Positions 12,955 to 34,909 of a stretch of DNA of 64,000 bases are shown in pieces. The notes under the pieces are model-generated. The model was given only the letters and a program-made list of their open reading frames with translations, was not told the DNA's origin and made no database searches. This DNA is from Xylophilus rhododendri. GTDB lineage: Bacteria > Pseudomonadota > Gammaproteobacteria > Burkholderiales > Burkholderiaceae_C. Location of the stretch: NCBI RefSeq assembly GCF_009906855.1, contig NZ_CP047650.1, positions 3,224,001 to 3,288,000 of the forward strand. The letters run 5' to 3'. Positions within the stretch are counted from its first letter, which is position 1, and every line of letters starts with the position of its first letter. Both the position numbers and the translations under genes were made by a program.

Positions 12955-14163
12955 TCATGTCTGCCCTTCCTCGGAATCGTCGGACGAGGAGTCGTCATGA
13001 CGGCGATTCGTCTGCTGCCCCATCACCCTCCGCGCCAACTCCCGCAAACGCACCGGATCCCGCATCTCCCCCGACAGCACCGCCTGGGCATACAGCGCCG
13101 ACGGTCCCTGCGGGTCCAGCCCCTGGGCCAGCCGGATGCTGGCCTGCGCCTCGGTCACCTTGCCCTGCAGCGCCTGCGCGGCGGCCAGCCCGCCGTGGCT
13201 TTCGGCGAAGTTGCGGTCCAGCGAAATCGCCGCCGCGAAGGCTGCTTCGGCGGCCGGCAGGCGGCCCTGCGCGATCTCGGTCCATGCCAGGGCGAGCCGG
13301 GTGCCGATGTGCTGCGGCATCAGGGCGACGGCGCGGGTCAGGGCCTGGTGGGCCAGGTCCAGGCGGCCGGCCAGCATATGGGCCAGGCCGGTGGCGGACC
13401 AGCTCCGGCCGTCCTGGTCATGGCGCTGCGTGGCCGGCAGCAGCATCTGCAGGGCGGCGTCGGGCTGTTCCTGCTCGACCAGCAAGGTGCCCTGGGCGAC
13501 GCAGGCTTCCCACTGGGTCGGGTCGCGGGCCAGCGCGCGTGATGCCAGCTCGCCGGCCACCTCGAACTTCTCCAGGTCCAGCGCCAGCAGGCTGGCGGCG
13601 CCCAGGGCGTCGGCGGTCCAGCAGGATGGGTCGGCCTTGCCGATGGCCTGCCAGGCCTCGTCGAGCCGGTGCAGCTGGTGCAGGGCGCGCAGCTGCAGCG
13701 AGAAGGCCTGCGGCAGGCTGCCGCTGCTGCCGGGGCGCAGCGCGGCGATGCGCTCCAGTGCGCCGGCATGGTCGCCCAGCGCATGGTGGGTGTAGGCCAG
13801 GTGGTAGCTGAGGGTGGTGGTGTCCTGGCTGCCCTGGCTGTTCTGGCCGTGGGCCGGTGCATCGGTGACCAGGGCTTGCAGCAGGCTTCGTGCGTCCTCC
13901 CAGTCGCCTTGCTGCATGGCGAGCAAGGCGGTGTTGTGGCGCCAGGCCGGGTCGGCGGCGCAGCGCGGGCGGGACCATTCGATCTGCTCGCGGGCCAGCG
14001 TGGCATTGCCCTCGGCCAGGGCGGCGTGGAAGACCTCCTTGCGCAGGGCCTGGTTGTCCGGGTCGGTGACGAGGAAGCGGCAGAGCAGGGCCAGCCGGGC
14101 GGCCGGGGATGGAGCGGCGGATGGTGCGGGGGATGGGCTGGGGAATGCAGTGTGGGTGTTCAT
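12955..14163 (-). CDS. TPR-repeat protein, last gene of the flagellar operon
   Basis: 402 residues, starting 12 bp after fliA stops. After a Pro/Ser/Ala-rich N-terminus, tandem 34-residue TPR-type helical hairpins fill the protein (for example HNTALLAMQQGDWEDARSLL and ALAWTEIAQGRLPAAEAAFA). No signal peptide or membrane segment. TPR proteins act as scaffolds or, in type III systems, as chaperones for exported substrates. Co-transcription with export and hook genes makes an assembly or chaperone role plausible; the exact function is not known from sequence. Confidence 0.8.
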   Translation of the reverse strand: MNTHTAFPSPSPAPSAAPSPAARLALLCRFLVTDPDNQALRKEVFHAALAEGNATLAREQIEWSRPRCAADPAWRHNTALLAMQQGDWEDARSLLQALVTDAPAHGQNSQGSQDTTTLSYHLAYTHHALGDHAGALERIAALRPGSSGSLPQAFSLQLRALHQLHRLDEAWQAIGKADPSCWTADALGAASLLALDLEKFEVAGELASRALARDPTQWEACVAQGTLLVEQEQPDAALQMLLPATQRHDQDGRSWSATGLAHMLAGRLDLAHQALTRAVALMPQHIGTRLALAWTEIAQGRLPAAEAAFAAAISLDRNFAESHGGLAAAQALQGKVTEAQASIRLAQGLDPQGPSALYAQAVLSGEMRDPVRLRELARRVMGQQTNRRHDDSSSDDSEEGQT

Positions 14164-14175
14164 GGATGGCTTTCT

Positions 14176-14991
14176 TCATGCGCCCAGCAGCAGGCGCAGT
14201 TTGCGCAGGGCCTGTTCATGCAGCTGGCTGATGCGGCCCTTGGTGAGGGCCAGGGAGCGGGCGATGGATTCGAATGGAAGGCCTTGCAGGTAGTGCAGCC
14301 GGATCACGCTTTGCTCGCGCTGCGTGAGCTGGCCGAGCAGGTCCAGCACACGCTGGCGTTCCTGCTTGAAGCACAGCGCCCGGTAGCCGCCGTCGGGTAT
14401 GCCGGCGGTGTCGTCCTGGTACATGCCGGTGCCGTCCAGCATGAATCCCAGCATCAGGCCGACGGCGACTTCGGCCATGTCCTCCATCAGCGCCGGTCCG
14501 TCGTGGAGTTTGCCGGCTGGAAGGGCGGCCTTGGCGGCGGCGATGCGTTCGGCGACGAGGCGGCGTTTGAGCGCGAGCTGCTCCTGCTGCTCGCTGATGT
14601 GTTCCAGGCCGTCGTGGATGGTGCCCTGCATGCGCCGGTGGGCGTAGGTGCGGAACTGGGCGCCGCGGGTGGGGTCGTAGCGGTCCACCGCCTCGATCAG
14701 GCCCAGGGTGGCCAGCTGCAGGTATTCGGCGAATTCGATCCCGTGGTAGCCGTGCCGGCAGAAGAGGCCGGTGGCGATGACCCGGGCGTAGGGCAGGTGC
14801 AGCATGATGATTCTTTCGCGCGCCTCGGCGTCCTGCTGTTCGATGTGGCGGCGCCAGAGTCCGGCTTCGATGTCGCGTTGCAGCTGGCGTTGCTGGGCGG
14901 CGGTTTCCTCGGCGCTGCTGAGGCTCTGCCGAGCCGCGGCCGGGCCGAGTTCGGGTGCGCCGTAGGGCGCTGTCACCAGGGCGCTGACCAT
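14176..14991 (-). CDS. fliA: Flagellar sigma factor sigma-28 (FliA)
   Basis: 271 residues, slightly longer than the usual 240 because of an N-terminal extension. Region 2 (LPYARVIATGLFCRHG, then FAEYLQLATLGLIEAVDRYD and AQFRTYAHRRMQGTI) and region 4 (LTQREQSVIRLHYLQG, then LALTKGRISQLHEQAL) are clear. It directs RNA polymerase to late flagellar promoters. It lies inside the structural operon, 13 bp after fliP, and no flgM (anti-sigma) is seen in the window. A matching promoter lies at 35081-35107. Confidence 0.93.
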   Translation of the reverse strand: MVSALVTAPYGAPELGPAAARQSLSSAEETAAQQRQLQRDIEAGLWRRHIEQQDAEARERIIMLHLPYARVIATGLFCRHGYHGIEFAEYLQLATLGLIEAVDRYDPTRGAQFRTYAHRRMQGTIHDGLEHISEQQEQLALKRRLVAERIAAAKAALPAGKLHDGPALMEDMAEVAVGLMLGFMLDGTGMYQDDTAGIPDGGYRALCFKQERQRVLDLLGQLTQREQSVIRLHYLQGLPFESIARSLALTKGRISQLHEQALRKLRLLLGA

Positions 14992-15004
14992 GGCCGTGCC
15001 GCAT

Positions 15005-15763
15005 TCAGTGGAACGAGCCGACCAGGGCCTTCAGCAGCAGGCCCCAGCCGTCCATCAGGATGAACATCAGGATCTTCAGCGGCAGGCTGATGGTGGCCGG
15101 CGGCATCATCATCATGCCCAGCGCCATGAGGATGCTGGCGACGATCAGGTCGATCAGCAGGAAGGGCAGGAACACTACGAAGCCGATCTGGAAGGCGGCG
15201 CGCAGCTCCGACAGCATGAAGGCGGGGATCAGCTGCAGGTTGCCGATGTCGTCCGGGCTGCGGGGCTGCGGCGCCTTGGAGAGTTCCACCATCAGCGCCA
15301 GGTCCTGCTCGCGGGTCTGGCGGAACATGAAGTCGCGCAGCGGCGCGCTGCCGCGTTCGTAGGCCTGCTCCACCGTCTGCCTGCCGTTCATGAAGGGGGT
15401 GAAGGCGTCCTGGTTGAGCTTCTGCAGCACCGGGGACATGGTGAACAGCGTGAGGAACAGGGCCAGGCCCAGCAGCACGGTGTTGGGCGGCGTCTCCTGC
15501 ATGCCCAGCGCATGGCGCAGCATCGAGAGAACGATGATGGTGCGCAGGAAGGAGGTGACGCAGACCAGCAGCGCCGGCAGCACGGCCAGCAGGGTCAGGC
15601 CGAGCACGATGCGCAGGGCCTGGGTGGTTTCGCCGCTGGCCAGGCCGCCGTGGGGGAAGGCCGATGCGGCCGTGGCGGCGCGGGCGCCGCAGCAGGCGAG
15701 TGCCGCCAGTGCCGTCAGGGCGCCGATGGCTGCGGCGCGATGGGCGAGGGCTGGGCGCTTCAT
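15005..15763 (-). CDS. fliP: Flagellar export gate protein FliP
   Basis: 252 residues from ATG 15763, overlapping fliO by 4 bp; longer upstream frames are rejected because FliP begins with a cleaved signal sequence, here RAAAIGALTALAALACCGA. Four membrane segments follow, with conserved FliP blocks TSFLRTIIVLSMLRHALG, AFMLSELRAAFQIGF and LPFLLIDLIVASILMALGM. FliP forms the export gate core with FliQ and FliR. fliQR are at the opposite end of the same operon. Confidence 0.96.
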   Translation of the reverse strand: MKRPALAHRAAAIGALTALAALACCGARAATAASAFPHGGLASGETTQALRIVLGLTLLAVLPALLVCVTSFLRTIIVLSMLRHALGMQETPPNTVLLGLALFLTLFTMSPVLQKLNQDAFTPFMNGRQTVEQAYERGSAPLRDFMFRQTREQDLALMVELSKAPQPRSPDDIGNLQLIPAFMLSELRAAFQIGFVVFLPFLLIDLIVASILMALGMMMMPPATISLPLKILMFILMDGWGLLLKALVGSFH

Positions 15764-16194
15764 GGCTTGGCCGGCTCCGGGCTGTCGGGTGGGCTGTCGG
15801 GCAGGGCATCCGGCGCGGAGGCGGGCGCGGGCTGGCGGTCCAGCACGGCGATGCCGGCATCGGTGCAGCCCAGCAGCAGCTGGCGGCCGCGCCATTCCAC
15901 CAGGTGCAGGCTGGCGCGCGGCGTGAGGCGTCTGGAGGAACGGACGCTGAACTCCGGCGCGGCGAGCACCGGCGCGAACAGGCGGCGCAGTGTGCCGCCG
16001 TGCGTCGTCTGCGCCCTGGCCGCGGGCGGCGCCTTGCGTTGGCGCAGCCAGTGCCGCTGCAGCGCGACGGCTGCGATCAGCACCAGCACCAGCAGCACCG
16101 CGGCGGCGATGGTGGGTGTGCCCTCGGGCTCCTCGCGGCGCACTGGGATGGAGGAGGGCAGCGGTTCGGCGCTGCCGGTGGATGCGCTGGGCAT
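15760..16194 (-). CDS. fliO: Flagellar export assembly protein FliO
   Basis: 144 residues from ATG 16194. One membrane segment (TIAAAVLLVLVLIAAVAL, about residues 27-45) is followed by a basic linker and a small beta domain (RASLHLVEWRGRQLLLGCTDAGI) typical of FliO, then a Pro-rich tail. FliO helps FliP fold and assemble. Overlaps fliP by 4 bp (ATGA). FliO is poorly conserved in general, so the call rests on topology, the small domain and position between fliN and fliP. Confidence 0.88.
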   Translation of the reverse strand: MPSASTGSAEPLPSSIPVRREEPEGTPTIAAAVLLVLVLIAAVALQRHWLRQRKAPPAARAQTTHGGTLRRLFAPVLAAPEFSVRSSRRLTPRASLHLVEWRGRQLLLGCTDAGIAVLDRQPAPASAPDALPDSPPDSPEPAKP

Positions 16195-16228
16195 GTGGGT
16201 CTGCTCCTGGCGGATGGATGGCCGGTGC

Positions 16229-16597
16229 TCAGACCGCCAGCGGCCGGGGCAGCTCGGTGATGCGCACGCCGAAGCAGTCGTCCACCGCCACCAGCACGCC
16301 GCGCGCGACCAGCTGGCCTTCGAGCAGGACATCGACCGGCTCTTCGATCGGCTGGTCCATGCGCAGCACCTGCTGCTCGCGCGCGGTGATCAGCTCGCCG
16401 ATGGAGATGGCGACCGTGCCCAGCTGCACCGTGAGCTGGGTGCGCACGCCGTGCAGCGGGTTGGCGGGCTGGGCCGCGCCGTGCGCCAGTCCGGGGAAGG
16501 CGGGGCGGGCGTCGGTTTCGGGCTGGTGGTCGATTTCGGTGAAGGCCAGGGGCTGCACCAGATGCGGCGTGTCGGGATGGGTGTCTTCGGAGTGCAT
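16229..16597 (-). CDS. fliN: Flagellar C-ring protein FliN
   Basis: 122 residues. The C-terminal SpoA (surface presentation of antigens) domain is clear: VRTQLTVQLGTVAISIGELI, then VDVLLEGQLVARGVLVAVDD and GVRITEL at the end. The N-terminal 45 residues are variable. FliN forms the base of the cytoplasmic ring and docks the FliH-FliI export ATPase. Follows the FliM-like gene after 45 bp. Confidence 0.93.
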   Translation of the reverse strand: MHSEDTHPDTPHLVQPLAFTEIDHQPETDARPAFPGLAHGAAQPANPLHGVRTQLTVQLGTVAISIGELITAREQQVLRMDQPIEEPVDVLLEGQLVARGVLVAVDDCFGVRITELPRPLAV

Positions 16598-16642
16598 GGT
16601 CTTGTTTTGCGAAAGAGGCGGGGAGCGGATCGGCGCCGGGGT

Positions 16643-17488
16643 TCAGGCCGGCGGCGCGGCGCCCAGGATTTCCACCGCCCGGTGGCCGCGCAGGCGGCCG
16701 AGGAAGGCCTGGCCGACGGCGGCCGCGCCGTGCGGGGTGCAGGGGCGGCCCTGCATCAGCAGCTGCACCGGGGTTTCCAGGGAATGCGTGCTGCGCAGCA
16801 CGTCGCCGGGCTGCAGTGCGCTCAGGGCGCCGATGGCGATTTCCAGCGGCTGCAGCGCCACCTGCAGCTGCAGCGCCGCGCCGCCGGCCGCCTGCAGCAC
16901 GGGCTGCGGCGCGGGCTGCCGGGGGCGATGCCCGGCTGCGGGCGCGGGCAGGCCACGCATGTCCAGCAGCAGCATCAGGCGGCCGCCCAGCCAGTCGGCG
17001 GACAGCACGGCCGCACCCGACCAGGGCCGCAGGGCTTCGGCCGGTGTGCGGAAGCCGGCGAGCCCCGGCACCGCAGCCTGCAATCCGGCGAGGGCGGCGC
17101 ACAGGGCGTCCCAGGCCTGGTGCAGCAGCCCATGGGCGATCGAGTCCTGGGGCGCGCGGACGGCGGCCAGGCCGGGGCTGTCCGGCAAGGTCATGAGCCG
17201 CGCCTGCAGCCGCTCCAGCGGGTCGGCCGTGCGGCCGTCGTGGTCCTGCAGGCACCACCAGAAGCCTTGCTGCGCCTGCCACGCGCACAGGGCCCGGGCC
17301 GGGTGGTGGAAGCCGGCATCCGCGCCCGTCTCGCAGCGCACGCCGCTCGCCGCGGGTGCGCCCGCGGGCAGCCAGTCCGCCGACCATGCAGCCGTCGCGT
17401 CGAGGAAACCCCCGGCCAATGCCGCACGATCGGCGCCGCGCAGGCAGGCCAGCGTGGCGGGCCCATGCTCCGAAGGCGCTGGCATCAC
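16643..17488 (-). CDS. fliM: Divergent FliM-like C-ring protein
   Basis: 281 residues, shorter than classical FliM (about 330). The C-terminal part (ALQLQVALQPLEIAIGALSALQPGDVLRS, about residues 200-230, and the final AFLGRLRGHRAVEIL) is a SpoA domain. The first 190 residues are very Ala-rich and poorly matched. The N-terminal LSQxEIDALL motif that binds phosphorylated CheY in motile flagella is not visible. It therefore looks closer to type III secretion SctQ-type proteins. Overlaps flgE by 4 bp. The symbol is assigned by position and the SpoA domain. Confidence 0.75.
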   Translation of the reverse strand: MMPAPSEHGPATLACLRGADRAALAGGFLDATAAWSADWLPAGAPAASGVRCETGADAGFHHPARALCAWQAQQGFWWCLQDHDGRTADPLERLQARLMTLPDSPGLAAVRAPQDSIAHGLLHQAWDALCAALAGLQAAVPGLAGFRTPAEALRPWSGAAVLSADWLGGRLMLLLDMRGLPAPAAGHRPRQPAPQPVLQAAGGAALQLQVALQPLEIAIGALSALQPGDVLRSTHSLETPVQLLMQGRPCTPHGAAAVGQAFLGRLRGHRAVEILGAAPPA

Positions 17489-18660
17489 GCGCCCATCATC
17501 CCGAACAGCGAGCCGATCATCTCGCCGGCGGTGGAGACGATCTGGGAGCAGGCCTGGTAGCCGCGCTGCATGATCACCAGGTTGCTGAACTCCTGCGACA
17601 GGTCGACGTTGGACATCTCCACCGCGCCCGACTGCACGCTGCCGAAGCCGCCGCCGCCGGCCACGCCCAGCCGCCAGTGCGAGCCCGGCCGGGCGCCGTA
17701 TTCGTTGTTGCCCAGGGCCTCGATGTCATCGACCGAATCGAAGGTGGCCACGGCCAGCTGGCGGCCCTTGACCGTCTGTCCGTTCGAATACACCAGCTGC
17801 AGCACGCCGGCGCTGTCGAAGCTCTCGCCCACCAGGGTGCCCGCGCCGTGGCCGTCCTGGCCGGACACGGCCACTGTGGAGCTGGTGCCGGTGTTGTTGG
17901 AGCTGACGCCGCTGGAGAAGTCCAGCGTGAGCGCCATGGCGCTGGCGCCCGCGGGCGAGTAGGCGTAGGCCAGCCGGGTGGTGCCGCTGGGCAGGCCGTC
18001 GGTGAAGCTCAGGGTGGCGGTGCCGACGGTGTTGCCGCCCTCGCTGAGGGTGGCCGTCCAGCTGCCGGGGCTGCCGGTCTGGGGCGCCAGGGCCAGGCTG
18101 AGGGTGTGGGTGCTACCGGCGCTGTCGATCACCTCGATGGCGGACACGCTGGCGCCGGTGCTGGTGGACAGCAGGTTGCCGGCGAAGGTGACGTTGGCGG
18201 TGGCCTGCGCCGGGCTGGCGCGCAGCGTGGCCAGCGATACCTCGCCCAGCACACCGCTGGCATCGAAGGCCATGACCTTCTCGCCGCTGCCGTTGACCAG
18301 GCTGCCGCTGTCGTCGAAACGGAACTGGCCATCGCGGGTGTAGCGCAGCTGGCCGGCGGCGTCGCGCACCACGAAGAAGCCCTGGCCGTCGACCGCCAGG
18401 TCCAGGCTGTTGCCGGTGCTCTGCAGCTCGCCGGCGCTCAGCTGCAGCCGGGTGCCGACGGTGCGCAGGCCCAGGCCGGCAGTGCTGGCGGTGCTGCCGC
18501 CGGCGGCAGCAGTGCCATGGGGCGCGAGCATGTCGGCGAAGACGGTGGTCGAACTCCGAAAGCCTGGGGTGTTGAGGTTGGCCGTGTTGTGGGAGATGGT
18601 GCGCAGGCCCTGCTCGTAGCCGCGCAGCCCGGTCTGGGCGACGAAGATGGAATCGATCAC
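17485..18660 (-). CDS. flgE: Flagellar hook protein FlgE
   Basis: 391 residues. The N-terminal rod-type block (AQTGLRGYEQGLRTISHN, then TANLNTPGFRSS) and the C-terminal block (MSNVDLSQEFSNLVIMQRG, then YQACSQIV) mark the axial-protein family, and the central region with LAVDGQGFFVV plus a Ser/Thr/Gly-rich variable domain is typical of hook protein. Exported to build the hook. Lies 10 bp after flgD and overlaps the next gene by 4 bp. Confidence 0.95.
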   Translation of the reverse strand: MIDSIFVAQTGLRGYEQGLRTISHNTANLNTPGFRSSTTVFADMLAPHGTAAAGGSTASTAGLGLRTVGTRLQLSAGELQSTGNSLDLAVDGQGFFVVRDAAGQLRYTRDGQFRFDDSGSLVNGSGEKVMAFDASGVLGEVSLATLRASPAQATANVTFAGNLLSTSTGASVSAIEVIDSAGSTHTLSLALAPQTGSPGSWTATLSEGGNTVGTATLSFTDGLPSGTTRLAYAYSPAGASAMALTLDFSSGVSSNNTGTSSTVAVSGQDGHGAGTLVGESFDSAGVLQLVYSNGQTVKGRQLAVATFDSVDDIEALGNNEYGARPGSHWRLGVAGGGGFGSVQSGAVEMSNVDLSQEFSNLVIMQRGYQACSQIVSTAGEMIGSLFGMMGA

Positions 18661-18670: not shown

Positions 18671-19075
18671 TCATGGCACGGCGGTGGTCACGGTGGTGAT
18701 GCGGGACAGGGCCACGTCCCGCAAGGTGCCGGCGTCGGTGGCGATCGACAGCAGCGGCGCGCTGCCCGCCATGTCGATGCCCTGCACCGTGCCGGTGGCC
18801 GTGCCTTCGGCGGTGGTGACGGTGACGGTGCGGCCCAGCAGGCCGACCGACTGCTGCGCCGCCTGGTTGGCCAGCAGGCTCTGCACATTGGTGTTGACCT
18901 GCTGGGTCTGCTCCAGGGTGGTGAACTGGGCGATCTGCGCCATGAACTCCTGGTTGTCCATGGGCTTGAGCGGATCCTGATAGGTGAGCTGGGTCATCAG
19001 CACCTGCAGGAAGTCCTGCAGGCTGATGGCCGAATTGGCGTGGCTGCTGCTCACGGCCGCGGTGTTGATGCTCAT
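18671..19075 (-). CDS. flgD: Short hook-capping protein FlgD
   Basis: 134 residues from ATG 19075; the longer upstream frame overlaps fliK and is rejected. The conserved N-terminal FlgD block is intact (LQDFLQVLMTQLTYQDPLKP and FMAQIAQFTTLEQ). A small beta region (VGLLGRTVTVTTAEG) follows, but most of the usual 220-residue protein, including the Ig-like domain, is missing. FlgD caps the growing hook. Overlaps fliK by 4 bp. Confidence 0.9.
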   Translation of the reverse strand: MSINTAAVSSSHANSAISLQDFLQVLMTQLTYQDPLKPMDNQEFMAQIAQFTTLEQTQQVNTNVQSLLANQAAQQSVGLLGRTVTVTTAEGTATGTVQGIDMAGSAPLLSIATDAGTLRDVALSRITTVTTAVP

Positions 19076-20115
19076 GGGGTCTCCCTGGGGATGAGGGGCG
19101 GGTGGGAAGAAAACTCGGGAATGGCGCCGTGCATGGCATGCGCCGGCCGGACGGGGCGGCCGTTGCACATCAGGGACAGCAGCTGCTGGCCGTGAAGCCG
19201 CAGCCAGGGGCCGATGGCGGCCTGCACCGAAGGGAGCGAGGGCAGGGCCCGGGCGTCTGCGCCCAGCCAGATGCGGACGCCTTGTGCGGTCCAGTGGGCC
19301 GACAGGCGCAGGGGCTCCGGGGTGCCGGTCGGCGGATCGAAGCGGCGGGCGGTGGCGGGGGGCTCGGCCGCTGCTTCGTCGGTGTCCGGCACCGGCGTGC
19401 GGGCGATGGCTTGGAGGGCAGTGGGCGAGGTTGGCGCGGGTGGGGCTGCGCACGGGGCGGCGTCCGGCGGGAGGCCGGGCTGAGGCGCGATGGCGGCGTC
19501 CACGGATGGGCTTGGCGGCTGCCCTGGCAGGGCTGTGGGTGGCCGGGTTTCGAGTAATGCCTGAGCCGGCATGGGCGCTGGCGGCTGCGCTGGCACGCGC
19601 ACGGGTGCTGCCGTGCCGGTGGCGGCGGGCGTCTCGCTCATGCGGCGGCTCCACCCGGTGTCTTCGGGGGCGTCGCCAGAGGTCCGGGTGGCCGGGGCAT
19701 GGACAGGGCCGTCGTGGTCCGGAGCGGCGCTGGAGGGGCGCCCGGTGGCGGCCGCTCCTGGCGCCGCGTCTCGCGACGGCGGGGCGCGGTCGGCCGGTCG
19801 GGTGACGGCATGCGTCGATGCCGCTGCCTGCATGGCGGGCGGGGGCGCGGGCGGCAGGCCGCTCCGCATCCGCGTTGGCTGCGGCGGCGGCGCGGCAGGC
19901 CCGGGCCGTGGCGGGGCCGGAAAGGGCGCGGCCGCACTGGCGACCGAGGTGGCGAGCCAGCCGGCGTGGTCCTCCCTGCGGGCGCGCTCGAACATGCGGT
20001 GCCAGGCCTGCTCGTCATGGGCGCTCAGGCGGCCGATGGGACCGCTCGCGAGCCGACGGGCCTGCGCGCTCGCGGCCTGTGGACCGGCGTCCGGCAGGAG
20101 CGGCAGCGTGTTCAC
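19072..20115 (-). CDS. fliK: FliK-like hook-length control protein
   Basis: 347 residues from GTG 20115, which overlaps the FliJ stop as GTGA; an ATG 27 bp upstream is possible but lies deeper within fliJ. The long central part is Pro/Ala-rich and unordered, as in FliK rulers. The C-terminal region (LSAHWTAQGVRIWLGADA, then AAIGPWLRLHGQQLLSLMCNGR) may be the substrate-switch domain. FliK measures hook length and switches export specificity through FlhB. The call rests on composition and on position between fliJ and flgD. Confidence 0.75.
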   Translation of the reverse strand: MNTLPLLPDAGPQAASAQARRLASGPIGRLSAHDEQAWHRMFERARREDHAGWLATSVASAAAPFPAPPRPGPAAPPPQPTRMRSGLPPAPPPAMQAAASTHAVTRPADRAPPSRDAAPGAAATGRPSSAAPDHDGPVHAPATRTSGDAPEDTGWSRRMSETPAATGTAAPVRVPAQPPAPMPAQALLETRPPTALPGQPPSPSVDAAIAPQPGLPPDAAPCAAPPAPTSPTALQAIARTPVPDTDEAAAEPPATARRFDPPTGTPEPLRLSAHWTAQGVRIWLGADARALPSLPSVQAAIGPWLRLHGQQLLSLMCNGRPVRPAHAMHGAIPEFSSHPPLIPRETP

Positions 20116-20600
20116 GCCGGGTCTTCCTCGTCCGGCAGGCACAGGCGGGCGAGCCAGTCCTGGTCGGACTGCCGGGCCTCGCCTTGCAGGGCGTTGATCA
20201 GGAACTCGGCCAGGGCTTCGGCGCGGTGCGCATCCAGCACATCGGCCTTCTGCTGATGGCGCAGGCAGTCGACCAGCACCTGCTTGATCTGCTGGCGCAG
20301 CGCGGCGGCCTGGGTCTGCCGCTGGCTGGACTGCTCACGCTCCTGGTCGAACCACTGGCGGGCCTGGAGCTGGCGCGCGGGATCGATCGGCTGGCCGGCG
20401 GCCGGCGTCAGCACCGCCTGCTGCGCGGCGGCTTCCTGCTGCGCCGCCCGCTGGTCCGCTTCGAGGCGCTCGAGTTCGGCGCGCAGCTGCGCCAGGCGCG
20501 ACTGCAGCGTGTTGAGCTCCGCTGCGGTGCAGCCTTGCAGCAGCTCCAGTGCGTAGCGGAAACCGCGGATTTCACCGCTCTTGGGAATGGTGTGGTTCAT
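20112..20600 (-). CDS. fliJ: FliJ-like export chaperone (coiled coil)
   Basis: 162 residues from ATG 20600, overlapping fliI by 4 bp. The middle of the protein is a long antiparallel coiled coil (NTLQSRLAQLRAELERLEAD and SQRQTQAAALRQQIKQVLV), as in FliJ, the stalk that rotates in the FliI hexamer and binds FlhA. The C-terminal part (AHRAEALAEFLINALQGEA) is helical. Sequence identity to FliJ is low, as is usual, so topology and gene order decide. Confidence 0.8.
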   Translation of the reverse strand: MNHTIPKSGEIRGFRYALELLQGCTAAELNTLQSRLAQLRAELERLEADQRAAQQEAAAQQAVLTPAAGQPIDPARQLQARQWFDQEREQSSQRQTQAAALRQQIKQVLVDCLRHQQKADVLDAHRAEALAEFLINALQGEARQSDQDWLARLCLPDEEDPA

Positions 20601-27410: not shown

Positions 27411-27998
27411 TCACAGTCCGAGCCAGTCCAGCGCCGCGCGCCACCAGGACCGGCGCTGGCGTTCGCTCAGATCGCCCTCGCCCAGGTAGTCGATGCGGGC
27501 GTCGGCCAGGCGGGTGGACAGCACCACGTTGTCGCCGGAGATGTCCTGCGGCCGCACCCGGCCGGTGAGGTCGACCATGCGGTGTTCCTGGTTGACGGTG
27601 AGCTGCTGGCGCCCCGAAACCGTCAGGTCGCCGTTGGGCAGCACCTCGCGCACGCTGACACTCAGCGTGGCCAGCAGCTTGCTCGCGCGCTGGGTGGAGC
27701 CGCCGCCGGCGAAATTGCCGCCCTGGGCTATGCTGCCGCCGCGCTGGCGGCCGGAGACGACCGAGGCGATGCCCAGGTTCAGGCCGTTGTTGCGCTCGGT
27801 GCTGGTGTCGGTGCTGCTGGAGGCGGAGGACTGCTCGTAGACCTGCACTGTCAACAGGTCGCCGACACGCCATGCCTTGTGGTCGCCTGCCAGCGCGCGG
27901 TAGCCGTCTTCGCGGAACAGGCTTTCCGCCCAGGCGCCGCCGGGCTGGCAGGCCATGGCGGCCAGCAGCAGGGCGGCTGCGGTGCGCTGCTGTTTCAT
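27411..27998 (-). CDS. flgH: Flagellar L-ring lipoprotein FlgH
   Basis: 195 residues from ATG 27998. The signal sequence ends in AAMAC, which fits the broader lipobox rules although it lacks the usual Leu at -3; Cys17 would be lipidated. Family blocks WRVGDLLTVQVYEQSSASSS, GNLTVSG-type GDLTVSGRQQLTVNQE and VRPQDISGDNVVLSTRLADA are clear. Forms the outer-membrane L ring. Overlaps flgA by 4 bp. Confidence 0.95.
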   Translation of the reverse strand: MKQQRTAAALLLAAMACQPGGAWAESLFREDGYRALAGDHKAWRVGDLLTVQVYEQSSASSSTDTSTERNNGLNLGIASVVSGRQRGGSIAQGGNFAGGGSTQRASKLLATLSVSVREVLPNGDLTVSGRQQLTVNQEHRMVDLTGRVRPQDISGDNVVLSTRLADARIDYLGEGDLSERQRRSWWRAALDWLGL

Positions 27999-29056
27999 TC
28001 GGCCAGCTCCACGGCGCCGGGGCCGGTCACGCGGGCCTTGAGGGAGGTCGCGGCGCCGGGCAGGCGCACCCGCACGGCCTGGCCGGGGGCTGCGTCGTCC
28101 AGCACTTCCGCGCGGCTTTCCAGCGCGACCGGGCCCTGGCCGGTCAGCAGCCGGACGAAGCTGCCCTGGCGGACGGCCGGCACGGCTTCGACGTCCGACT
28201 GGGTGAGGGGGCGGCCGGCGGCCACGGGCCTGCGCAGGCGCAGCGCTGCGGTGTCCGGCCGCAGGGCCGCGGGCAGGGGGGCCGACATGCGGCCGGACCA
28301 CTCCACTTCATGCACGGCTGCCTGGCCGGCGGCGGCGGGATCAGGCGCCAGTTCTTCGCCCGCGCCCAGGTCGCGGGCAGCCAGCAGGCCGGTGCCGTAG
28401 AGATGCACATCGAAGACCACCGGCACCAGGCGCAGGAAACGTTCGTCGGCCCACAGTTCCACCCAGACGGTGCGCCGGGTGGGCATGCCGGCCGCCCTGT
28501 TGCCGCCCTGTGCGGCCAGGGGCAGGCTGAGGGGCAGCTCGGTCGGGCGCGGGCGCAGCTGGATGTCCTGGCCGGGCGCCTGCACATCCCGCGGCGGCTG
28601 GGCGAGTTCGATCTCGGCGCGCAGCGGCTGCTCCTGCAACTGCTGCTGCAGCTGGCCGCGGGCGGCAGCCGCGATGCGGGCGCCGCTGACGGTGTGCAGC
28701 GCCAGGCGTACCTGCACGGCCTCGGGCCCGCTCCAGGCCAGTGCCGTTTGCGCCAGGCCTTGCTGCGAGCGGATCCAGCGGGAGACACGGGCGCGTTCCA
28801 GCACCGAGGCCTCGCCGTTGACCGCCACCTGGCCGATGGGCAGGGCCATGAGTCGCTGCAGCAGCGGCAGCGAGCTGGTGCGGATCAGCGCCACGTCGGT
28901 CAGCCGCACCTCGGCGCGTGTGACGCTGGCTTCGGGGCGCAGCTCCAGGCTGGCCACGGCTTGCGCGGCGCGGCCCGGCGCGGGCCAGGCCGCAAGCAGC
29001 AGCAAGCCGGCCAGGGCTGCCGGCAGGGCGTGGAGGGCACGGTGGTGGCGCAGCAT
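27995..29056 (-). CDS. flgA: P-ring assembly chaperone FlgA (long form)
   Basis: 353 residues from ATG 29056; usual FlgA is about 230, so this is a long form. A signal peptide (ALAGLLLLAAWPAPGRA) is followed by a region of about 150 residues of weak similarity, then the SAF-type domain GTGLLAARDLGAGEELAPDP and the end block TAALRLRRPVAAGRPLTQSD, EVLDDAAPGQAVRVRLPGA. Periplasmic chaperone for FlgI. Lies between flgG and flgH, overlapping the latter. Confidence 0.92.
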   Translation of the reverse strand: MLRHHRALHALPAALAGLLLLAAWPAPGRAAQAVASLELRPEASVTRAEVRLTDVALIRTSSLPLLQRLMALPIGQVAVNGEASVLERARVSRWIRSQQGLAQTALAWSGPEAVQVRLALHTVSGARIAAAARGQLQQQLQEQPLRAEIELAQPPRDVQAPGQDIQLRPRPTELPLSLPLAAQGGNRAAGMPTRRTVWVELWADERFLRLVPVVFDVHLYGTGLLAARDLGAGEELAPDPAAAGQAAVHEVEWSGRMSAPLPAALRPDTAALRLRRPVAAGRPLTQSDVEAVPAVRQGSFVRLLTGQGPVALESRAEVLDDAAPGQAVRVRLPGAATSLKARVTGPGAVELAE

Positions 29057-29069
29057 CGCGGGCCTCCTG

Positions 29070-29885
29070 CTACTTGCGCAGGTTGTTGACCAGGCCGAGC
29101 ATTTCATCGGCCGCCTGCATCACCTTGAGGCTGGCCTCGTAGGCGCGCCTGGCGATCATCAGATCGACCATCTCGTCGCTCATCTTCACGTTCGAGCTTT
29201 CCAGAAAGCCTTGCTGCAGCGTGCCCAGGCCCTCCTGGCCCGGCATGCCGGCGATGGGCTCGCCGGCGCTGTCGCCGGCCTTGTAGAGGCCGTCGCCCAG
29301 AGCCGTCAGGCCGGCAGGGTTGGCGAAACGCACCAGCTCGATCTGGCCGAGCTGGGCTGGGCGGCTCTGGTGGGGCAGCACGGCGCTGACCTGGCCGTCG
29401 GCCGCGATGCTCAGGCTGGTGGCATGCGGCGGGATGGCGATGCCGGGCTTGAGGGCCTGGCCCGACAGTGTTGCCAGTTGGCCGTCGGCATTGGTCTTGA
29501 GGCTGCCGCCGCGCGAATAGGCCAGGCTGCCGTCGGCCAGCAGCACCGGCAGGAAACCGTCGCCCTGGATCGCCAGGTCCCAGGCCGAATCGGTCTGGTT
29601 GAGGGGGCCGGCGTCGAAGAGCTTGGCCAGGGTGGCGATGCCCACGCCGTCGCCCAGCCGGGCCGCGCCGCCGCCGGCCTGCAGGGGCAGGCGGGGATCG
29701 GCCAGCGGATCGGCCATGGCCGCGCGCTGGGCGGCGATCGCATCGGTGGAGACCAGGTCGGTGAAGCTGACCCGCGTCTTCTTGTAGGCCGGCGTGTTGA
29801 GGTTGGCCAGGTTGTTGGCGATGGTGTCGATGGACAGCTGCTGGGCCTGCAGGCCCGTGGCGCTGATGGAGAGTGCGTCCAGCAT
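29070..29885 (-). CDS. flgG: Flagellar distal rod protein FlgG
   Basis: 271 residues. N-terminal axial block SISATGLQAQQLSIDTIANN with LANLNTPAYKKTRVSF, the internal DLAIQGDGFLPVLLADG, and the C-terminal SNVKMSDEMVDLMIARRAYE block identify FlgG. Builds the distal rod that passes through the P and L rings. Follows flgF after 28 bp. Confidence 0.94.
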   Translation of the reverse strand: MLDALSISATGLQAQQLSIDTIANNLANLNTPAYKKTRVSFTDLVSTDAIAAQRAAMADPLADPRLPLQAGGGAARLGDGVGIATLAKLFDAGPLNQTDSAWDLAIQGDGFLPVLLADGSLAYSRGGSLKTNADGQLATLSGQALKPGIAIPPHATSLSIAADGQVSAVLPHQSRPAQLGQIELVRFANPAGLTALGDGLYKAGDSAGEPIAGMPGQEGLGTLQQGFLESSNVKMSDEMVDLMIARRAYEASLKVMQAADEMLGLVNNLRK

Positions 29886-29913: not shown

Positions 29914-30660
29914 TCAGGACAGCTCGCCGAGCTTGCGCACCGCCGTGCCCATGGCTTCGTCGTAGCTCTGCACTGCCTTCTGCACCGACTCGAAGTGGCG
30001 CAGGGTGGACATCAGCTCGGTCATCTCGTGCAGCACGTCGACGTTGGATTTCTCCAGCGCGCCCTGGCGCAGGCGCGGCTGCGGCTCCAGGGCGACCGTG
30101 CCGCGGCTCTGCAGCAGGCCGTTGCCGGCGCGCTCCAGGCTGCGCGGGTCGTCGATGTGGACGATCTTGAGTTGCCCGACCGGCTCGGCGGTGGGCGTCT
30201 GGGCATCGGGCTCGCTGACCCGGCCCTGGGCATCGATGACGGGGGTGCGGGTGGACAGGACGATCTCGCCGCCCAGCCCCATCACGGCATCGCCCTGGGC
30301 GGTCACCAGCCGGCCGCGGGCGTCGGTGTGGAAGTCGCCCTGGCGGGTATAGGCCGGACCGGTGGCGGTGGCGATCTCGAAGAAGCCCTCGCCTTCCAGG
30401 GCCAGGTCCAGGCGCTGGCCGGTGCTGGCGAGGGTGCCGGCGCGGGTGTCCAGCCGCACCTGCAACGCCGCGCCGCCGGCGGCCTGCGCCGCATCGAAAG
30501 CATCCACCGTCGCGGCGAATGCCGGCACCAGGGGCGGGGATGCCGGCACGCCGCGCTTGTAGCCGGGGGTGGTGGCATGGGCCAGGCTGGAGGCGATGTG
30601 GGCCAGCCGCTGGCTGTGCTGGTCCAGGCTGGCGAGGGCGATGGCGAGAGTGGCTTGCAT
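29914..30660 (-). CDS. flgF: Flagellar proximal rod protein FlgF
   Basis: 248 residues. N-terminal block ASLDQHSQRLAHIASSLAHA is a divergent axial motif (NxxAN replaced), followed by TPGYKRG, the internal LDLALEGEGFFEIATATGPA and the C-terminal EKSNVDVLHEMTELMSTLRH. Position before flgG and length indicate FlgF, the proximal rod subunit. Follows flhA after 15 bp. Confidence 0.9.
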   Translation of the reverse strand: MQATLAIALASLDQHSQRLAHIASSLAHATTPGYKRGVPASPPLVPAFAATVDAFDAAQAAGGAALQVRLDTRAGTLASTGQRLDLALEGEGFFEIATATGPAYTRQGDFHTDARGRLVTAQGDAVMGLGGEIVLSTRTPVIDAQGRVSEPDAQTPTAEPVGQLKIVHIDDPRSLERAGNGLLQSRGTVALEPQPRLRQGALEKSNVDVLHEMTELMSTLRHFESVQKAVQSYDEAMGTAVRKLGELS

Positions 30661-30675
30661 GGCGATACCGGGTGA

Positions 30676-32739
30676 TCAGAGGCCGACGACGGCCCAGGAC
30701 TTGAGTTCGACGTTCTGCGGCACCTCGGCCATGGAGAGCACCCGCAGATGCGGCATGACCCGTTCGGACATGGCGCGCAGGTGGCGGCGCAGCTCGGGTG
30801 CGCACAGCAGCACCGGCAGGAGGTTGTTCTTCATCATTCGTTCGGCCTGCTGCACCAGGCGCAGCAGCAGTTGCTCGGCCAGCTGGGGCTCGATGGCGAA
30901 CTGCGCCTGGGCCTCCGGGCGCGGCGCGGTGAAGCTGCCCAGCAGGCGGCTTTCGGCGGCCGGGTCCAGCGTCATCACCTGCAGCGCGCCAGGGTCGGCC
31001 GCGTCGCCCGGCAGCAGGCTCTGGCAGATGGCGTGGCCCAGGCGCTGGCGCACCTGCTCGGCCAGCAGCACCGCGTCCCGGGTGTGGCGGCCTGCGTCGG
31101 CCAGGGTTTCCAGGATGGCTTCGAGATTGCGGATCGAGACCTTTTCCCTGAGCAGGGCCTGCAGCACCTTCTGCACGTCGGTCAGCGAGAGCACGGTGGG
31201 CACGATGTCCTCGACCAGGCCGGGCTGGCTGCCGCGCACCCGGGCCAGCAGCTTCTCGACCTCCGCGCGGCTGAGCAGCGTGGCCGCCTCGCGGCGCAGG
31301 ACTTCGCCCAGGTGGGTGAGGAAGACCGTGGGGCCGTCCACCAGCGTGTAGCGGGCGGCCTGGGCCGCCGCCCTCTGGCTTTCCTCGATCCACAGCGCCG
31401 GCAGGTGGTAGGTGGGGTCGCGGGTGAGTTCGCCGGGCACGCTCTTGACGTCGCCGGCCGGGTGGATGGCCAGCAGCCGGTCCTGGCGCACCTCGGCCCG
31501 GGCGCAGGCCACGCCGTCGATCAGGATCTCGTAGCGGTCCGGGGCCAGCCGGGACGATTCGCGCAGGCGGATCGGCGGAAGCACCATGCCGAGTTCGAGG
31601 GCGAAGCCGCGGCGGAACTCCTGGATGCGCGGCAGCAGGGGGCCGGCATCGCCGGCCAGGCCGGTCCAGCGGCTGCCGATGGCGACCTCCACCGGCGGCA
31701 CGCGCAGGCTTTCGTAGGCCTGTGCGGCGGCGCTGTCGGGCGCGCTGTTTTCTTCCTGCGGCGGCGTGTCCTGCGTTTGCAGCGCCGCATTCGCGCGGAC
31801 CCGCATCGACAGGGCGGCCGCGCCCAGCAGGCAGGCGATCAGCAGCGAGGACGGCAGCAGGGGCAGGCCCGGCAGCAAGAGCAGCCCGCCGAGCACGGCG
31901 GCCACCAGCACCAGGGTCTTGGGAAAGGAGGTGATCTGGCGCAGCACCTCGGCGCTGAGGTTCCGGTCCGAGGAAGAGCGGGTGACGATGATGCCGGTGC
32001 CCACCGCGATCACCAGCGCCGGCACCTGGGTGACGATGCCGTCGCCGATGGTCATCAGGGTGTAGGTCTGCAGCGCCTGGCTCCAGCCGTAGCCGTGCTG
32101 CATCACGCCGATCACCAGGCCGCCCACGATGTTGATCAGCATGATGACGATGCCGGCCACGGCATCGCCCTTGACGAACTTGCTGGCGCCGTCCATGGCG
32201 CCGTAGAAGCCGGCCTCCTTCTCCAGGTTGCGGCGGCGTGCCTGGGCCTGCTCCTGGTCGATGAAACCCATGTTGAGGTCGGCATCGATGCTCATCTGCT
32301 GGCCGGGCATGCTGTCGAGCGTGAAGCGGGCCGCGACTTCCGACACCCGCTGGGCGCCGCTGGTGACCACCACGTACTGCACCACGATCAGGATCAGGAA
32401 GACGATCAGGCCGATCACGTAGTTGCCGCCCACCACGAAGGAGCCGATGGCCGAGATGACCCGGCCGGCGCTGGCGTCCGACAGGATGAGGCGGGTGGCC
32501 GACACGTTCAGCGAGAGGCGGAACAGGGTGGCGATCAGCAGCAGCGAGGGGAAGGTGGAGAACTCCACCGGGCGCGCCACGTAGAAGGTCAGCAGCAGGA
32601 TCAGGAAGGCGAAGCTGAAGTTGGTGAGGATGAGGAAATCCAGCAGCGCGGGCGGCACCGGCGCGAACAGCACGATGAGCACACCCAGCACGAGCGCGAT
32701 CAGCAGGACATCGCCATGGCGGGAGAACAGCTGCTTCAT
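30676..32739 (-). CDS. flhA: Flagellar export gate protein FlhA
   Basis: 687 residues from ATG 32739, the family's usual length; a much longer upstream frame is a shadow over flhB and fliR. Eight membrane segments fill the first 320 residues, with the family signatures VEFSTFPSLLLIATLFRLSL, DAMPGQ-type LDSMPGQQMSIDADLNMGFI and DGASKFVKGDAVAGI between them. The rest is the cytoplasmic docking domain for FliI, FliJ and chaperones. Proton-driven export engine. Overlaps flhB by 4 bp. Confidence 0.97.
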   Translation of the reverse strand: MKQLFSRHGDVLLIALVLGVLIVLFAPVPPALLDFLILTNFSFAFLILLLTFYVARPVEFSTFPSLLLIATLFRLSLNVSATRLILSDASAGRVISAIGSFVVGGNYVIGLIVFLILIVVQYVVVTSGAQRVSEVAARFTLDSMPGQQMSIDADLNMGFIDQEQAQARRRNLEKEAGFYGAMDGASKFVKGDAVAGIVIMLINIVGGLVIGVMQHGYGWSQALQTYTLMTIGDGIVTQVPALVIAVGTGIIVTRSSSDRNLSAEVLRQITSFPKTLVLVAAVLGGLLLLPGLPLLPSSLLIACLLGAAALSMRVRANAALQTQDTPPQEENSAPDSAAAQAYESLRVPPVEVAIGSRWTGLAGDAGPLLPRIQEFRRGFALELGMVLPPIRLRESSRLAPDRYEILIDGVACARAEVRQDRLLAIHPAGDVKSVPGELTRDPTYHLPALWIEESQRAAAQAARYTLVDGPTVFLTHLGEVLRREAATLLSRAEVEKLLARVRGSQPGLVEDIVPTVLSLTDVQKVLQALLREKVSIRNLEAILETLADAGRHTRDAVLLAEQVRQRLGHAICQSLLPGDAADPGALQVMTLDPAAESRLLGSFTAPRPEAQAQFAIEPQLAEQLLLRLVQQAERMMKNNLLPVLLCAPELRRHLRAMSERVMPHLRVLSMAEVPQNVELKSWAVVGL

Positions 32740-33824
32740 GAGGGGACGGCTCCGCTGGCGGCGGCTGCCGCGTCCCGGCGCCGGGCCAAGACCCAGACGA
32801 CGATGCGCGCCACCGGGCCGTAGAGATGCGGCGGCACATGGCCATCGACCGGCAGCTCGCGAAACAGCGCGCGTGCGAGCGCGGGGCTGTGCACGACCGG
32901 AATCGCATGGCGCGCGGCGATCTTGCGCATCGCCGCCGCCAGCAGGCCCTGGCCCTTGGCGATCAGCTGGGGCGCGGCCATCTCGCCGTGCACATAACGC
33001 AGGGCGACGCAGAGGTGGGTGGGGTTGGCGATCAGCACGTCGGCCTCGCCCGTGCGGCGCACCGAGCGGCTGCGTTTGAGGGACTCGCGCATCAGCTTGC
33101 GGATACGGGCGCGGATGCGGGGGTCGCCATCGCGGCTCTTGTGCTCGTCGCGCAGCTCGCGGCGGCTCATGCGCATGCGTTGCTGGAAGCTGCGGCGGGT
33201 GTAGGCGTAGTCGAGGAGGGCGACCAGGCCTAGGGTGGCGGCCAGCTTCAGGCCGAGCGAGGACAGGTCTTCGACGATGGCCTGCAGCCAGCCCTGCGCC
33301 GACAGCGTGGCCAGCCCGAAGAACTGCGGCAGCAAGGCCTGGAGCGCCATCCAAGTCACCACCACCAAGATCGCCAGCTTGAGCAGCGAGCGCAGCAGCT
33401 GGAACAGGGTGTGAGTGGAGAACAGGCGCTTGAAGCCGGCGGCCGGATCGAGGCGCTCGAACCGCGGCGACAGGGCTTCGAAGGACAGCACCCAGCCGAA
33501 CTGCAGCACGTTGCCGAGCACCGCCGCGATGGCGATGGCGCCGAGAAAGGGCGCCGACTGCAACAGCGCGGCCTTCAATCCTTGCGAGGCCAGCCCGGCC
33601 AGTTCGATGCCATCGAGCGTCCCGGGCCGGGACAGGAGCCGGCCGCACAGCTGGAAGACCGACTGCCAGTCGTCGAGCCCGCGCCAGGCCATGAAGGCCA
33701 TGGCGACGGCAAAGACCAGCGCCGCGCTCAGGTGCGGACTGCGCGCCACCTGGCCCTGCTCGCGTGCACGCTGGAGCTTGTGGGCAGTGGCCGGCTGGCT
33801 GCGGTCGAGGTCGGACTGCGACAT
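32736..33824 (-). CDS. flhB: Export specificity switch protein FlhB
   Basis: 362 residues with four membrane segments and the conserved self-cleavage site NPTH at residues 267-270 (context DVLIANPTHLCVALRY). Cleavage between Asn and Pro allows the switch from hook to filament-type substrates when FliK signals. The N-terminal Gln-rich segment and the block RSRDGDPRIRARIRKLMRES are also typical. Six bp after fliR and overlapping flhA. An intact NPTH implies a functional switch. Confidence 0.97.
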   Translation of the reverse strand: MSQSDLDRSQPATAHKLQRAREQGQVARSPHLSAALVFAVAMAFMAWRGLDDWQSVFQLCGRLLSRPGTLDGIELAGLASQGLKAALLQSAPFLGAIAIAAVLGNVLQFGWVLSFEALSPRFERLDPAAGFKRLFSTHTLFQLLRSLLKLAILVVVTWMALQALLPQFFGLATLSAQGWLQAIVEDLSSLGLKLAATLGLVALLDYAYTRRSFQQRMRMSRRELRDEHKSRDGDPRIRARIRKLMRESLKRSRSVRRTGEADVLIANPTHLCVALRYVHGEMAAPQLIAKGQGLLAAAMRKIAARHAIPVVHSPALARALFRELPVDGHVPPHLYGPVARIVVWVLARRRDAAAAASGAVPS

Positions 33825-33830
33825 GGGACT

Positions 33831-34622
33831 TCAGCGGAGTGCGGAGCCGCCCGTGGCGAACCACTGGCTCCATGCCGAGAACAGGGCCGCGTACACCGCC
33901 CGCACGGTCGCGCCGCCGACGGCGATCCAGAGCGACAGGGCGCCCAGGCCCACGACGATCTTGGCCGCGATGCCCAGCGCGATTAGGTTCATGCCCGGCA
34001 GGCTGCGCGCCAGCACGCCGAGCGCGAATTCCACCAGCAGGATGCAGACGACCACCGGCGCGGCCATGGCGAAACCCAGCGTGGCCATGGCGCCGACCTG
34101 GCGCAGCACGGTGGGGGCGGCCCCGGCCAGCGGCCAGGGCGCACCCAGGGGGAACTGCTGCAGGCTGGCGCCGAAGCCGCGCAGCAGCGCATGGTGGGCA
34201 TCCGACAGGAAGAAGCAGACGACACCCAGCTGGGTGAAGGCGGCGCTCAGCACCGGCTGGCTGGTGTTGGAGAGCGGATCGAGCACCTGTGCCAGGCCGT
34301 AGCCGATCTGCACATCCAGCAGCCGGCCGGCCAGCGCGAAGGAGGCGAAGGCCAGGTGGATGCCCAGGGCCAGCGTGGCGCCGAACGCCAGCTCCTGCAG
34401 GACGGCCGCCGGGGTGGCCTGGCTCGCGGCCAGGGATGGCGCCGTGCCGCCCACCAGGCAGGCCGCCAGGCCCAGGATGAAGAACACCCGGGCGGTGGCG
34501 GGAATGCCGCTGCTGGCGAAGATGGGTGTCAGCAGCAGGGCGCTGCCCAGTCTTGCCGATGCCAGGAGCACCGGCTGCAGCCCGTGCAGCCACTCCTGGG
34601 CGCCTGCCGCCAGCGTGTTCAT
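33831..34622 (-). CDS. fliR: Flagellar export gate protein FliR
   Basis: 263 residues from ATG 34622; the upstream extension covers fliQ and is rejected. Six membrane segments, with family blocks RLGSALLLTPIFASSGIPAT, GRLLDVQIGYGLAQVLDPLS and PVVVCILLVEFALGVLARSL. Forms the export pore with FliP and FliQ. Twenty bp downstream of fliQ. Confidence 0.95.
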   Translation of the reverse strand: MNTLAAGAQEWLHGLQPVLLASARLGSALLLTPIFASSGIPATARVFFILGLAACLVGGTAPSLAASQATPAAVLQELAFGATLALGIHLAFASFALAGRLLDVQIGYGLAQVLDPLSNTSQPVLSAAFTQLGVVCFFLSDAHHALLRGFGASLQQFPLGAPWPLAGAAPTVLRQVGAMATLGFAMAAPVVVCILLVEFALGVLARSLPGMNLIALGIAAKIVVGLGALSLWIAVGGATVRAVYAALFSAWSQWFATGGSALR

Positions 34623-34642
34623 CGCGATCGGGGGACCGGGGC

Positions 34643-34909
34643 TTAGAAAAGAGCGGGGATGCCGTCCCACAGGCCGGTGGCGAAATGCGTGAGCTTTCGC
34701 ATCATCCAGGGGCCCAGGAGGATGACCGTGAGGCCCGCGGTGAGCAGCTTGGGCACGAAGGTCAGCGAGGCTTCCTGGATCTGGGTCACCACCTGCAGCA
34801 TGCTGACGACCACGCCGACCAGCAGGGTCAGCCCCAGGATTGGGCCGCAGATGACGAGGGCCATCCAGCAAAGCTCGCTGGTCATTTTGAGGGCAAGGTC
34901 GGAATGCAT
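34643..34909 (-). CDS. fliQ: Flagellar export gate protein FliQ, first gene of the operon
   Basis: 88 residues with two membrane segments (MALVICGPILGLTLLVGVVV and LPKLLTAG-type KLLTAGLTVILLGPWMMRKL). The conserved stretch SMLQVVTQIQEASLTFVPK lies between them. First gene of a co-directional run of 26 genes ending at 12955. Its promoter should lie in 34910-35138. Confidence 0.95.
   Translation of the reverse strand: MHSDLALKMTSELCWMALVICGPILGLTLLVGVVVSMLQVVTQIQEASLTFVPKLLTAGLTVILLGPWMMRKLTHFATGLWDGIPALF

Follow-up and report, generated by a model that had tools for sequence, protein, structure and literature searches.

Introduction

Two described systems retain type III export genes without motility. 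According to the parts of the report cited here, the non-flagellated Lysobacter enzymogenes has kept a flagellar export apparatus without filament, stator, fliG and fliM, and secretes FlgD (PMC9927559). The needle-less type III secretion system (T3SS*) of Myxococcus xanthus, also called the 'Myxo' non-flagellar T3SS (NF-T3SS), is presented in the cited sections as a non-motile type III offshoot with LcrH-type chaperones and a proposed function in protein translocation (PMC10433427, PMC3459982). Secondary flagellar loci are also known: the flag-3 loci of Enterobacterales encode 46 of the 47 flag-1 flagellar and chemotaxis proteins, as stated in the cited part of their description (PMC7526173). 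In this paper we analyse a 26-gene flagellar-type operon at positions 12955-34909 of a 64,000-nucleotide stretch of Xylophilus rhododendri DNA (contig NZ_CP047650.1, C1 below, positions 3,224,001 to 3,288,000; this whole stretch is called the window). From sequence comparisons we consider it probable that the operon encodes a non-rotary, flagellum-derived type III hook-basal body that exports RHS polymorphic toxins.

With the bacterial flagellum the system shares the export gate, the ATPase, the MS, P and L rings, the rod, the hook and a FliA-like sigma factor, and its FlhA stands beside those of motile flagella. It differs in having no filament, cap, junction or stator genes, in its shortened FliG and FliM and in its RHS partner. 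The L. enzymogenes apparatus, as far as the cited text describes it, is a leftover of the organism's own flagellum that also lacks flgB and fliE (PMC9927559), whereas the system reported here forms a separate clade with full rod and hook, is mostly found beside a complete flagellum and has RHS partners. The T3SS* of Myxococcales is described in the cited sections as having no outer-membrane parts (PMC10433427, PMC3459982), unlike the present system with its FlgH, FlgI, rod and hook. Like flag-3 it is a supernumerary locus in addition to a primary one, but every filament or motor gene tested is missing from the clade; kinship with flag-3 was rejected, those loci being nearly complete in the account cited (PMC7526173).

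On the side of the partner protein, a survey of polymorphic toxins, in the part cited, names the type III route in general and mentions a flagellar-operon RNase in Firmicutes (PMC3482391). The RHS toxins of that survey and the protein studied here have in common the RHS repeats and exchangeable tips at the C-terminus, and perhaps a neighbour gene of SUKH type. A difference is the distinct 105-residue N-terminus tied to a flagellar-type system. Another is that PAAR, the N-terminal mark of type VI secreted Rhs proteins, is not matched (E 0.01) within residues 1-3630 of the Xylophilus protein. We found no description of the system in the open-access (PMC) literature; it may be described elsewhere.

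A hook-basal body operon without filament and motor genes

The first-pass annotation, made from the letters of the window alone, had proposed a one-directional operon of 26 flagellar genes with 4-bp overlaps, and this is borne out by Pfam and by the coordinates. All 26 genes lie on the minus strand, in the order fliQ fliR flhB flhA flgF flgG flgA flgH flgI flgB flgC fliE fliF, the fliG position, fliH fliI, the fliJ and fliK positions, flgD flgE fliM fliN fliO fliP, a FliA-like sigma factor gene and a tetratricopeptide repeat (TPR) gene. Pfam families of flagellar or type III export proteins name 21 of the 26; the sigma gene has sigma-70 domains and the TPR gene has TPRs, and no Pfam family is found at the cut-off for the genes at the fliG, fliJ and fliK positions. 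The genes for the export gate FlhAB-FliPQR with FliHI, for the rod, the P/L rings and the hook are all present by Pfam. The annotation's statement that all gate, ring, rod and hook genes are there holds for gate, rod and hook, and is too generous for the rings because fliG and fliM encode shortened or remodelled proteins.

In positions 5001-42000 of the window, phmmer (E 1e-3) finds no match to the genome's own primary FliC (two proteins), FliD, FliS, FlgJ, FlgK, FlgL, FliG, FliM, FliL, MotA, MotB or FlhF, and the main open reading frames (ORFs) in the rest of the window, scanned with Pfam, include no member of a chemotaxis, flhDC, stator or filament family. This agrees with the annotation, which had listed fliC, fliD, flgK, flgL, flgJ, motAB, flhF, flhDC and che as missing from the window. 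The same picture is seen in 77 related loci (see below), where flagellin, FliD, FliS, FlgL, FlgJ, MotA, MotB, FliL, FlhF and canonical FliM are absent beside the operon; 13 weak FlgK matches fall on flgE or flgG ORFs, and the sole FliG match (L035, 1e-4) sits at the fliG-position gene. Distant forms of motility proteins at the loci could be missed, since each query was one protein taken from the primary flagellum of the genome itself; the whole-genome searches described below used Pfam models.

The likeness of the fliG-position protein (about 201 residues; 22832-23440) is restricted to the N-terminal and middle domains of FliG, and no torque domain is recognised. In the fliM-position protein (16643-17488; PF01052 1.1e-5) the FliN-like C-terminal domain is the only one found: hhalign covers FliM 252-321 only, and the middle domain is not recognisable. 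The CheY motif of FliM is present in none of 77 system-set rows (73 system loci, the window, the duplicates G004 and G056, and L112), against seven of seven canonical sequences. NCBIfam has no name for either protein. Judged by these comparisons the C-ring looks motorless, its FliG-like protein (FliG') having no recognisable torque domain and its FliM no CheY motif.

The genome (5.87 Mb, two contigs) contains a second, complete-looking motile flagellar set at C1:1.755-1.816 Mb, in the region 1.755-1.835 Mb, with genes named by N-termini and order. Two flagellins are encoded at 1.774-1.775 Mb, and a third Flagellin_N match at 1.814 Mb is FlgL by position. The only FliG_C and the only MotB_plug of the genome both lie within the 1.77-1.79-Mb set, and one of seven MotA/ExbB-family matches is at 1.791 Mb. 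The whole-genome search is in line with the earlier suggestion that the operon is a secondary system. FlhA-family proteins are found in three places, the third in two pieces. This third locus at 4.27 Mb (C1:4255001-4295000; L033, L034) has fliI-, fliP- and flhB-like export genes; within the 40 kb examined there nothing matches rod, P/L-ring or hook genes, and the locus is probably an injectisome.

Conservation of the system

In two of 59 relatives we observed a FliF match far better than any primary FliF, and both have the operon with its gene order kept, apart from an inverted TPR gene in one of them. The system is present in two of the seven genomes of the genus and in 19 of the 399 genomes of a family sample, a patchy distribution that fits the acquisition as a block put forward in the first-pass annotation. 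A scan with three FliF proteins yielded 80 loci, from 105 confirmed relatives. The comparison of gene order that the annotation had called for shows that 77 of the 80 share the operon, with conserved order, as far as their contigs extend; many of them are cut by contig ends. The three loci outside this set are L111 and L112, which carry FliG and MotA, and the short L114. The hook gene flgE is present in 75 of the 77. Records of the loci are titled Variovorax, Ramlibacter, Paracidovorax, Undibacterium, Collimonas, Paraburkholderia, Trinickia, Pandoraea, Ralstonia, Achromobacter, Roseateles and Andreprevotia, with outliers titled Gammaproteobacteria, Nevskia, Legionella, Verrucomicrobia and Caulobacter.

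In the FlhA tree the 28 system members form one clade (100/100) beside seven primary FlhA proteins. Both groups stand apart from five other FlhA-family rows, which include the genome's own third copy, and the system FlhA does not group with the SctV-type (injectisome) proteins. The FlhA of the window groups with the Burkholderia paludis protein (85/85, not starred), not with the one of its congener. The nonsynonymous substitution rate (dN) is lower than the synonymous rate (dS) in 28 of 28 gene comparisons (three species pairs, stop-to-stop frames), one of which is saturated and uninformative; this indicates that the clade is under purifying selection.

Three loci deserve a separate remark. 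The system FlhA of Paracidovorax konjaci (L064, G079) has one inner TAG and that of Ramlibacter terrae (L093, G097) is in fragments, and each might be a pseudogene or a sequencing error. L110, whose record names Caulobacter vibrioides strain T5M6, has the system together with the RHS N-terminus; its alphaproteobacterial title may be wrong because its FlhA sits with Trinickia and Paraburkholderia rows.

Carriers without flagellin

Fifty of 53 selected loci were taken forward (all but L039, L050 and L076), and 49 of the genomes behind them were searched as a whole. Flagellin and FliG_C are both absent from the same nine carriers, four Variovorax and five Ramlibacter. MotB_plug has no match in seven of these nine and weak partial matches in two (8e-6 and 1e-4). 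In five of the nine the system FlhA is the sole FlhA-family place; R. terrae is one of the five, its FlhA fragments, all at one place, being counted as one. The operon therefore persists where no flagellin filament can be made. This is a comparative answer to the objection, anticipated in the annotation, that filament and stator genes elsewhere are used by the operon. The genome paper of R. tataouinensis, in the part cited, reports no flagellar genes in that strain (PMC3164672).

Association with RHS proteins

The association of the system with RHS proteins is new. Eleven RHS proteins near the operon have a 105-residue N-terminus in common (RHS-N), which is partly like DUF6531, under the cut-off of that family, and has no NCBIfam name. 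In the family sample of 399 genomes, carriers were defined as the 19 with a FliF match above 450 bits (the next match has 249 bits; 207 of the 399 match at 1e-60), and 21 genomes have RHS-N. Both are found in 17 genomes and neither in 376, so that RHS-N occurs in 17 of 19 carriers against 4 of 380 others (Fisher 3e-24). The exceptions are G144 and G328 with the system only, and G035, G175, G252 and G264 with RHS-N only. Counted by genus (15/1/3/122, p 2e-16), the association holds in 15 of 16 carrier genera. An order sample, also of 399 genomes, gives a similar result: 11 genomes have both and 382 neither, and RHS-N is found in 11 of 14 carriers against 3 of 385 others (p 1.5e-16, or 3e-15 without the genome studied here). 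Here G473, G521 and G776 have the system only, and G621, G691 and G738 RHS-N only. The two samples share the Xylophilus genome and some genomes of its family, and the tables are approximate because genomes are not independent and divergent carriers fall under the cut-off.

System and RHS-N share a contig in 16 of the 27 distinct genomes that have both, at a distance of 10-37 kb. Flanks were examined for five flagellin-free genomes, and in three of these an RHS gene adjoins the operon (G062, G066 and G067, not G077 and G081). The Xylophilus genome has a second RHS-N protein, encoded 2.2 Mb from the operon (RHS-N at C1:1018518-1018820, open frame of 4371 residues), which is possibly an unlinked cargo. 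No sigma-28-like promoter was found upstream of 11 RHS genes with a single consensus, a narrow test that says little.

The RHS protein of the window is encoded by one open frame of 5490 codons on the plus strand that starts at C1:3213608, 10.4 kb before the window, and occupies positions 1-6080 with its C-terminal part. It contains RHS repeats, fifteen Big_3_5 stretches and one LysM. Downstream, on the same strand, lies an orphan RHS C-terminal module (6586-9393), which has 72% identity to the RHS protein (residues 4585-5178) and then continues into an unrelated tip. A possible immunity gene of SUKH-1 (SMI1/KNR4) type is found at 12272-12643, plus strand (PF09346 4.3e-5, 24.5 bits against a cut-off of 25.4). 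The locus thus combines RHS repeats, an exchangeable tip and an orphan module, as polymorphic toxins do; read from the sequence, the orphan tip and the near-cut-off SUKH-1 gene are marks of such toxins.

Proposed function and alternative explanations

Here a base and a hook without motor and filament, found in many environmental bacteria, are accompanied by giant toxin-like proteins, and the system therefore probably exports these proteins rather than driving swimming. We infer the export step from linkage and co-occurrence. The gate, ATPase, rings, rod and hook would be assembled as in a flagellum, and the shortened FliG/FliM/FliN ring might be a static sorting platform. The TPR proteins and a 148-residue protein encoded beside the operon may act as chaperones or regulators, and the conserved RHS N-terminus as export signal. 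When the hook is complete, FlhB would switch the gate, and an unfolded RHS chain, not flagellin, would be exported through the hook, ending up on the surface or in an adjacent cell, where its variable tip could act. The annotation had already considered protein export or a hook-basal body possible; our results support this, export being the probable function, and add the shortened motor proteins and the RHS partner, which it had missed. A wider proposal, which we think has about an even chance of being right, is that the clade represents a distinct secretion class: an old monophyletic flagellar branch whose motor was dismantled and whose hook became a conduit for giant unfolded RHS polymorphic toxins to other cells. 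A dedicated sigma factor, TPR chaperones and a novel helper family would belong to it, and it would occur mainly in Betaproteobacteria, with outliers titled Gammaproteobacteria and Verrucomicrobia.

Several observations weigh against toxin export by a motorless organelle. Flagellin is encoded elsewhere in 40 of the 49 carriers, so that only the other nine genomes exclude a contribution from a primary flagellum. The likeness to FliG has weak Foldseek E-values (best 0.37), the Z reached can arise by chance between helical folds, and 4 of 15 VIA rows extend into the FliG C-terminal repeats. The fliG-position model, a hidden Markov model (HMM), has no match in 5 of the 69 loci that span fliF-fliP (the alignment has 69 rows, including the duplicates G004 and G056). 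RHS-N is below threshold in 5 of 33 carriers (2/19 and 3/14, the Xylophilus genome being in both samples), and seven genomes have RHS-N and no detected system. The p values are too small because genomes are not independent. System and RHS-N lie on different contigs in 11 of the 27 genomes with both; because of this same separation, together with the spread over genera, simple hitchhiking is an insufficient explanation of the association.

These exceptions lend some weight to the idea that the hook-basal body is a non-motility exporter whose real substrates are other proteins, RHS genes being associated with it through shared islands or lifestyle. RHS loci often lie on mobile islands, and the export of RHS proteins by the system is deduced from the association only. 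Nevertheless, the association extends over 15 of the 16 carrier genera of the family sample and one RHS-N gene of the Xylophilus genome is far from the operon, so we regard this explanation as unlikely. We give a good deal less credence to a surface or adhesion organelle that ends with the hook, which serves attachment, with no export beyond it. The near-universal flgE and the lack of a linked filament gene would suit such an organelle, but it leaves the RHS association and the TPR and helper genes unexplained.

It is hard to believe that the operon builds a second motile flagellum borrowing filament, FliG and stator from the primary set. Such borrowing could work in the 40 carriers, Xylophilus among them, that have flagellin and FliG_C elsewhere, but nine have neither, and the motor parts are unrecognisable throughout in FliG' and FliM. 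The missing motility genes, the fragmented R. terrae copy and the inner TAG in one relative's FlhA might also recall a decaying relic of a flagellar locus. This is highly improbable too, given the open frames in the window, a gene order kept across 77 loci, a dN smaller than dS in every one of the 28 pairs tested and losses that are common to the clade.

If toxin export by a motorless hook-basal body is confirmed, the system would be one more case, in parallel with the injectisome, of a flagellum turned into a non-motile exporter, here with rod, LP rings and hook retained, and in most carriers it would coexist with a flagellin-bearing flagellum. It would bear on how flagellar exaptation starts, with the motor going and the export core staying, and would offer an exit route for RHS proteins of several thousand residues. 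It would also be a warning that 'flagellar' labels in automatic annotation need not imply swimming. The flagellin-free Ramlibacter and Variovorax carriers would allow our interpretation to be tested directly, without an interfering motile flagellum.

Genes of the operon

The operon begins with fliQ (34643-34909; PF01313 2.6e-24), fliR (33831-34622; PF01311), flhB (32736-33824; PF01312) and flhA (30676-32739; PF00771 3.8e-239). FlhB has an intact NPTH sequence. There follow flgF (29914-30660; PF06429, PF22692), named from its position, flgG (29070-29885; PF22692, PF06429, PF00460), flgA (27995-29107; PF13144), whose start is uncertain, the L-ring gene flgH (27411-27998; PF02107) and the P-ring gene flgI (26224-27402; PF02119 1.2e-115). 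Next come flgB (25798-26184; PF00460), flgC (25317-25781; PF06429), fliE (24994-25320; PF02049) and the MS-ring gene fliF (23437-24915; PF01514, PF08345). Beyond the fliG position lie fliH (22020-22835; PF02108) and fliI for the export ATPase (20597-22039; PF00006 2.2e-86, PF18269).

The fliJ- and fliK-position genes (20112-20600 and 19072-20115) are recognised by position and by clade HMMs, which match in 65 and 54 of the 80 loci respectively; NCBIfam has no name for the latter either. The hook cap and hook are encoded by flgD (18671-19075; PF03963) and flgE (17485-18660; PF22692, PF06429, PF07559). After fliM come fliN (16229-16597; PF01052 1.6e-16), fliO (15760-16194; PF04347) and fliP (15005-15763; PF00813 5.1e-76). 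The sigma factor (14176-14991; PF04545, PF04542) is FliA/WhiG-like, the FliA_WhiG model matching below its cut-off. The last gene encodes a TPR protein of 402 residues (12955-14163; TPR families). It is detected in 38 of the 77 system loci; several of the loci stop short of it. By their coordinates, flhB/flhA, flgC/fliE, fliF/fliG', fliG'/fliH, fliI/fliJ, fliK/flgD, flgE/fliM and fliO/fliP overlap by four bases.

Neighbouring genes

The annotation had called the neighbouring DNA on both sides unrelated, and this does not hold: RHS genes and a pair of genes for a TPR protein and a 148-residue protein recur beside the operons of relatives. When the flanks are compared in 23 genomes, the following neighbours recur: a TPR gene of about 390 residues (20), a smaller TPR gene (17), a 145-residue family (16, of which the window was identified by HMM) and an RHS-repeat protein (14, counting the window). 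In the window the smaller TPR gene (180 residues; 35139-35681, plus strand; TPR families) is divergent from fliQ. Likeness of the TPR proteins to SycD/LcrH is seen only far under the cut-off. The adjacent gene (35681-36124, plus strand) encodes a helper of about 148 residues and unknown fold belonging to the p145 family (family HMM 4e-24). It is without a Pfam or NCBIfam family or a usable match in the PDB, and its AlphaFold model is helical with a pLDDT of 75. The family HMM finds 39 ORFs over all loci, duplicates counted, and in the gammaproteobacterial outliers, too, the family accompanies the operon.

Between the RHS modules and the operon (9400-12950) the window has a low guanine-cytosine content and small ORFs, unnamed apart from 12272-12643. 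Beyond the upstream side of the system the chromosome continues with a ChaN-like gene (36130-36888) and a DUF3567 gene (37038-37316).

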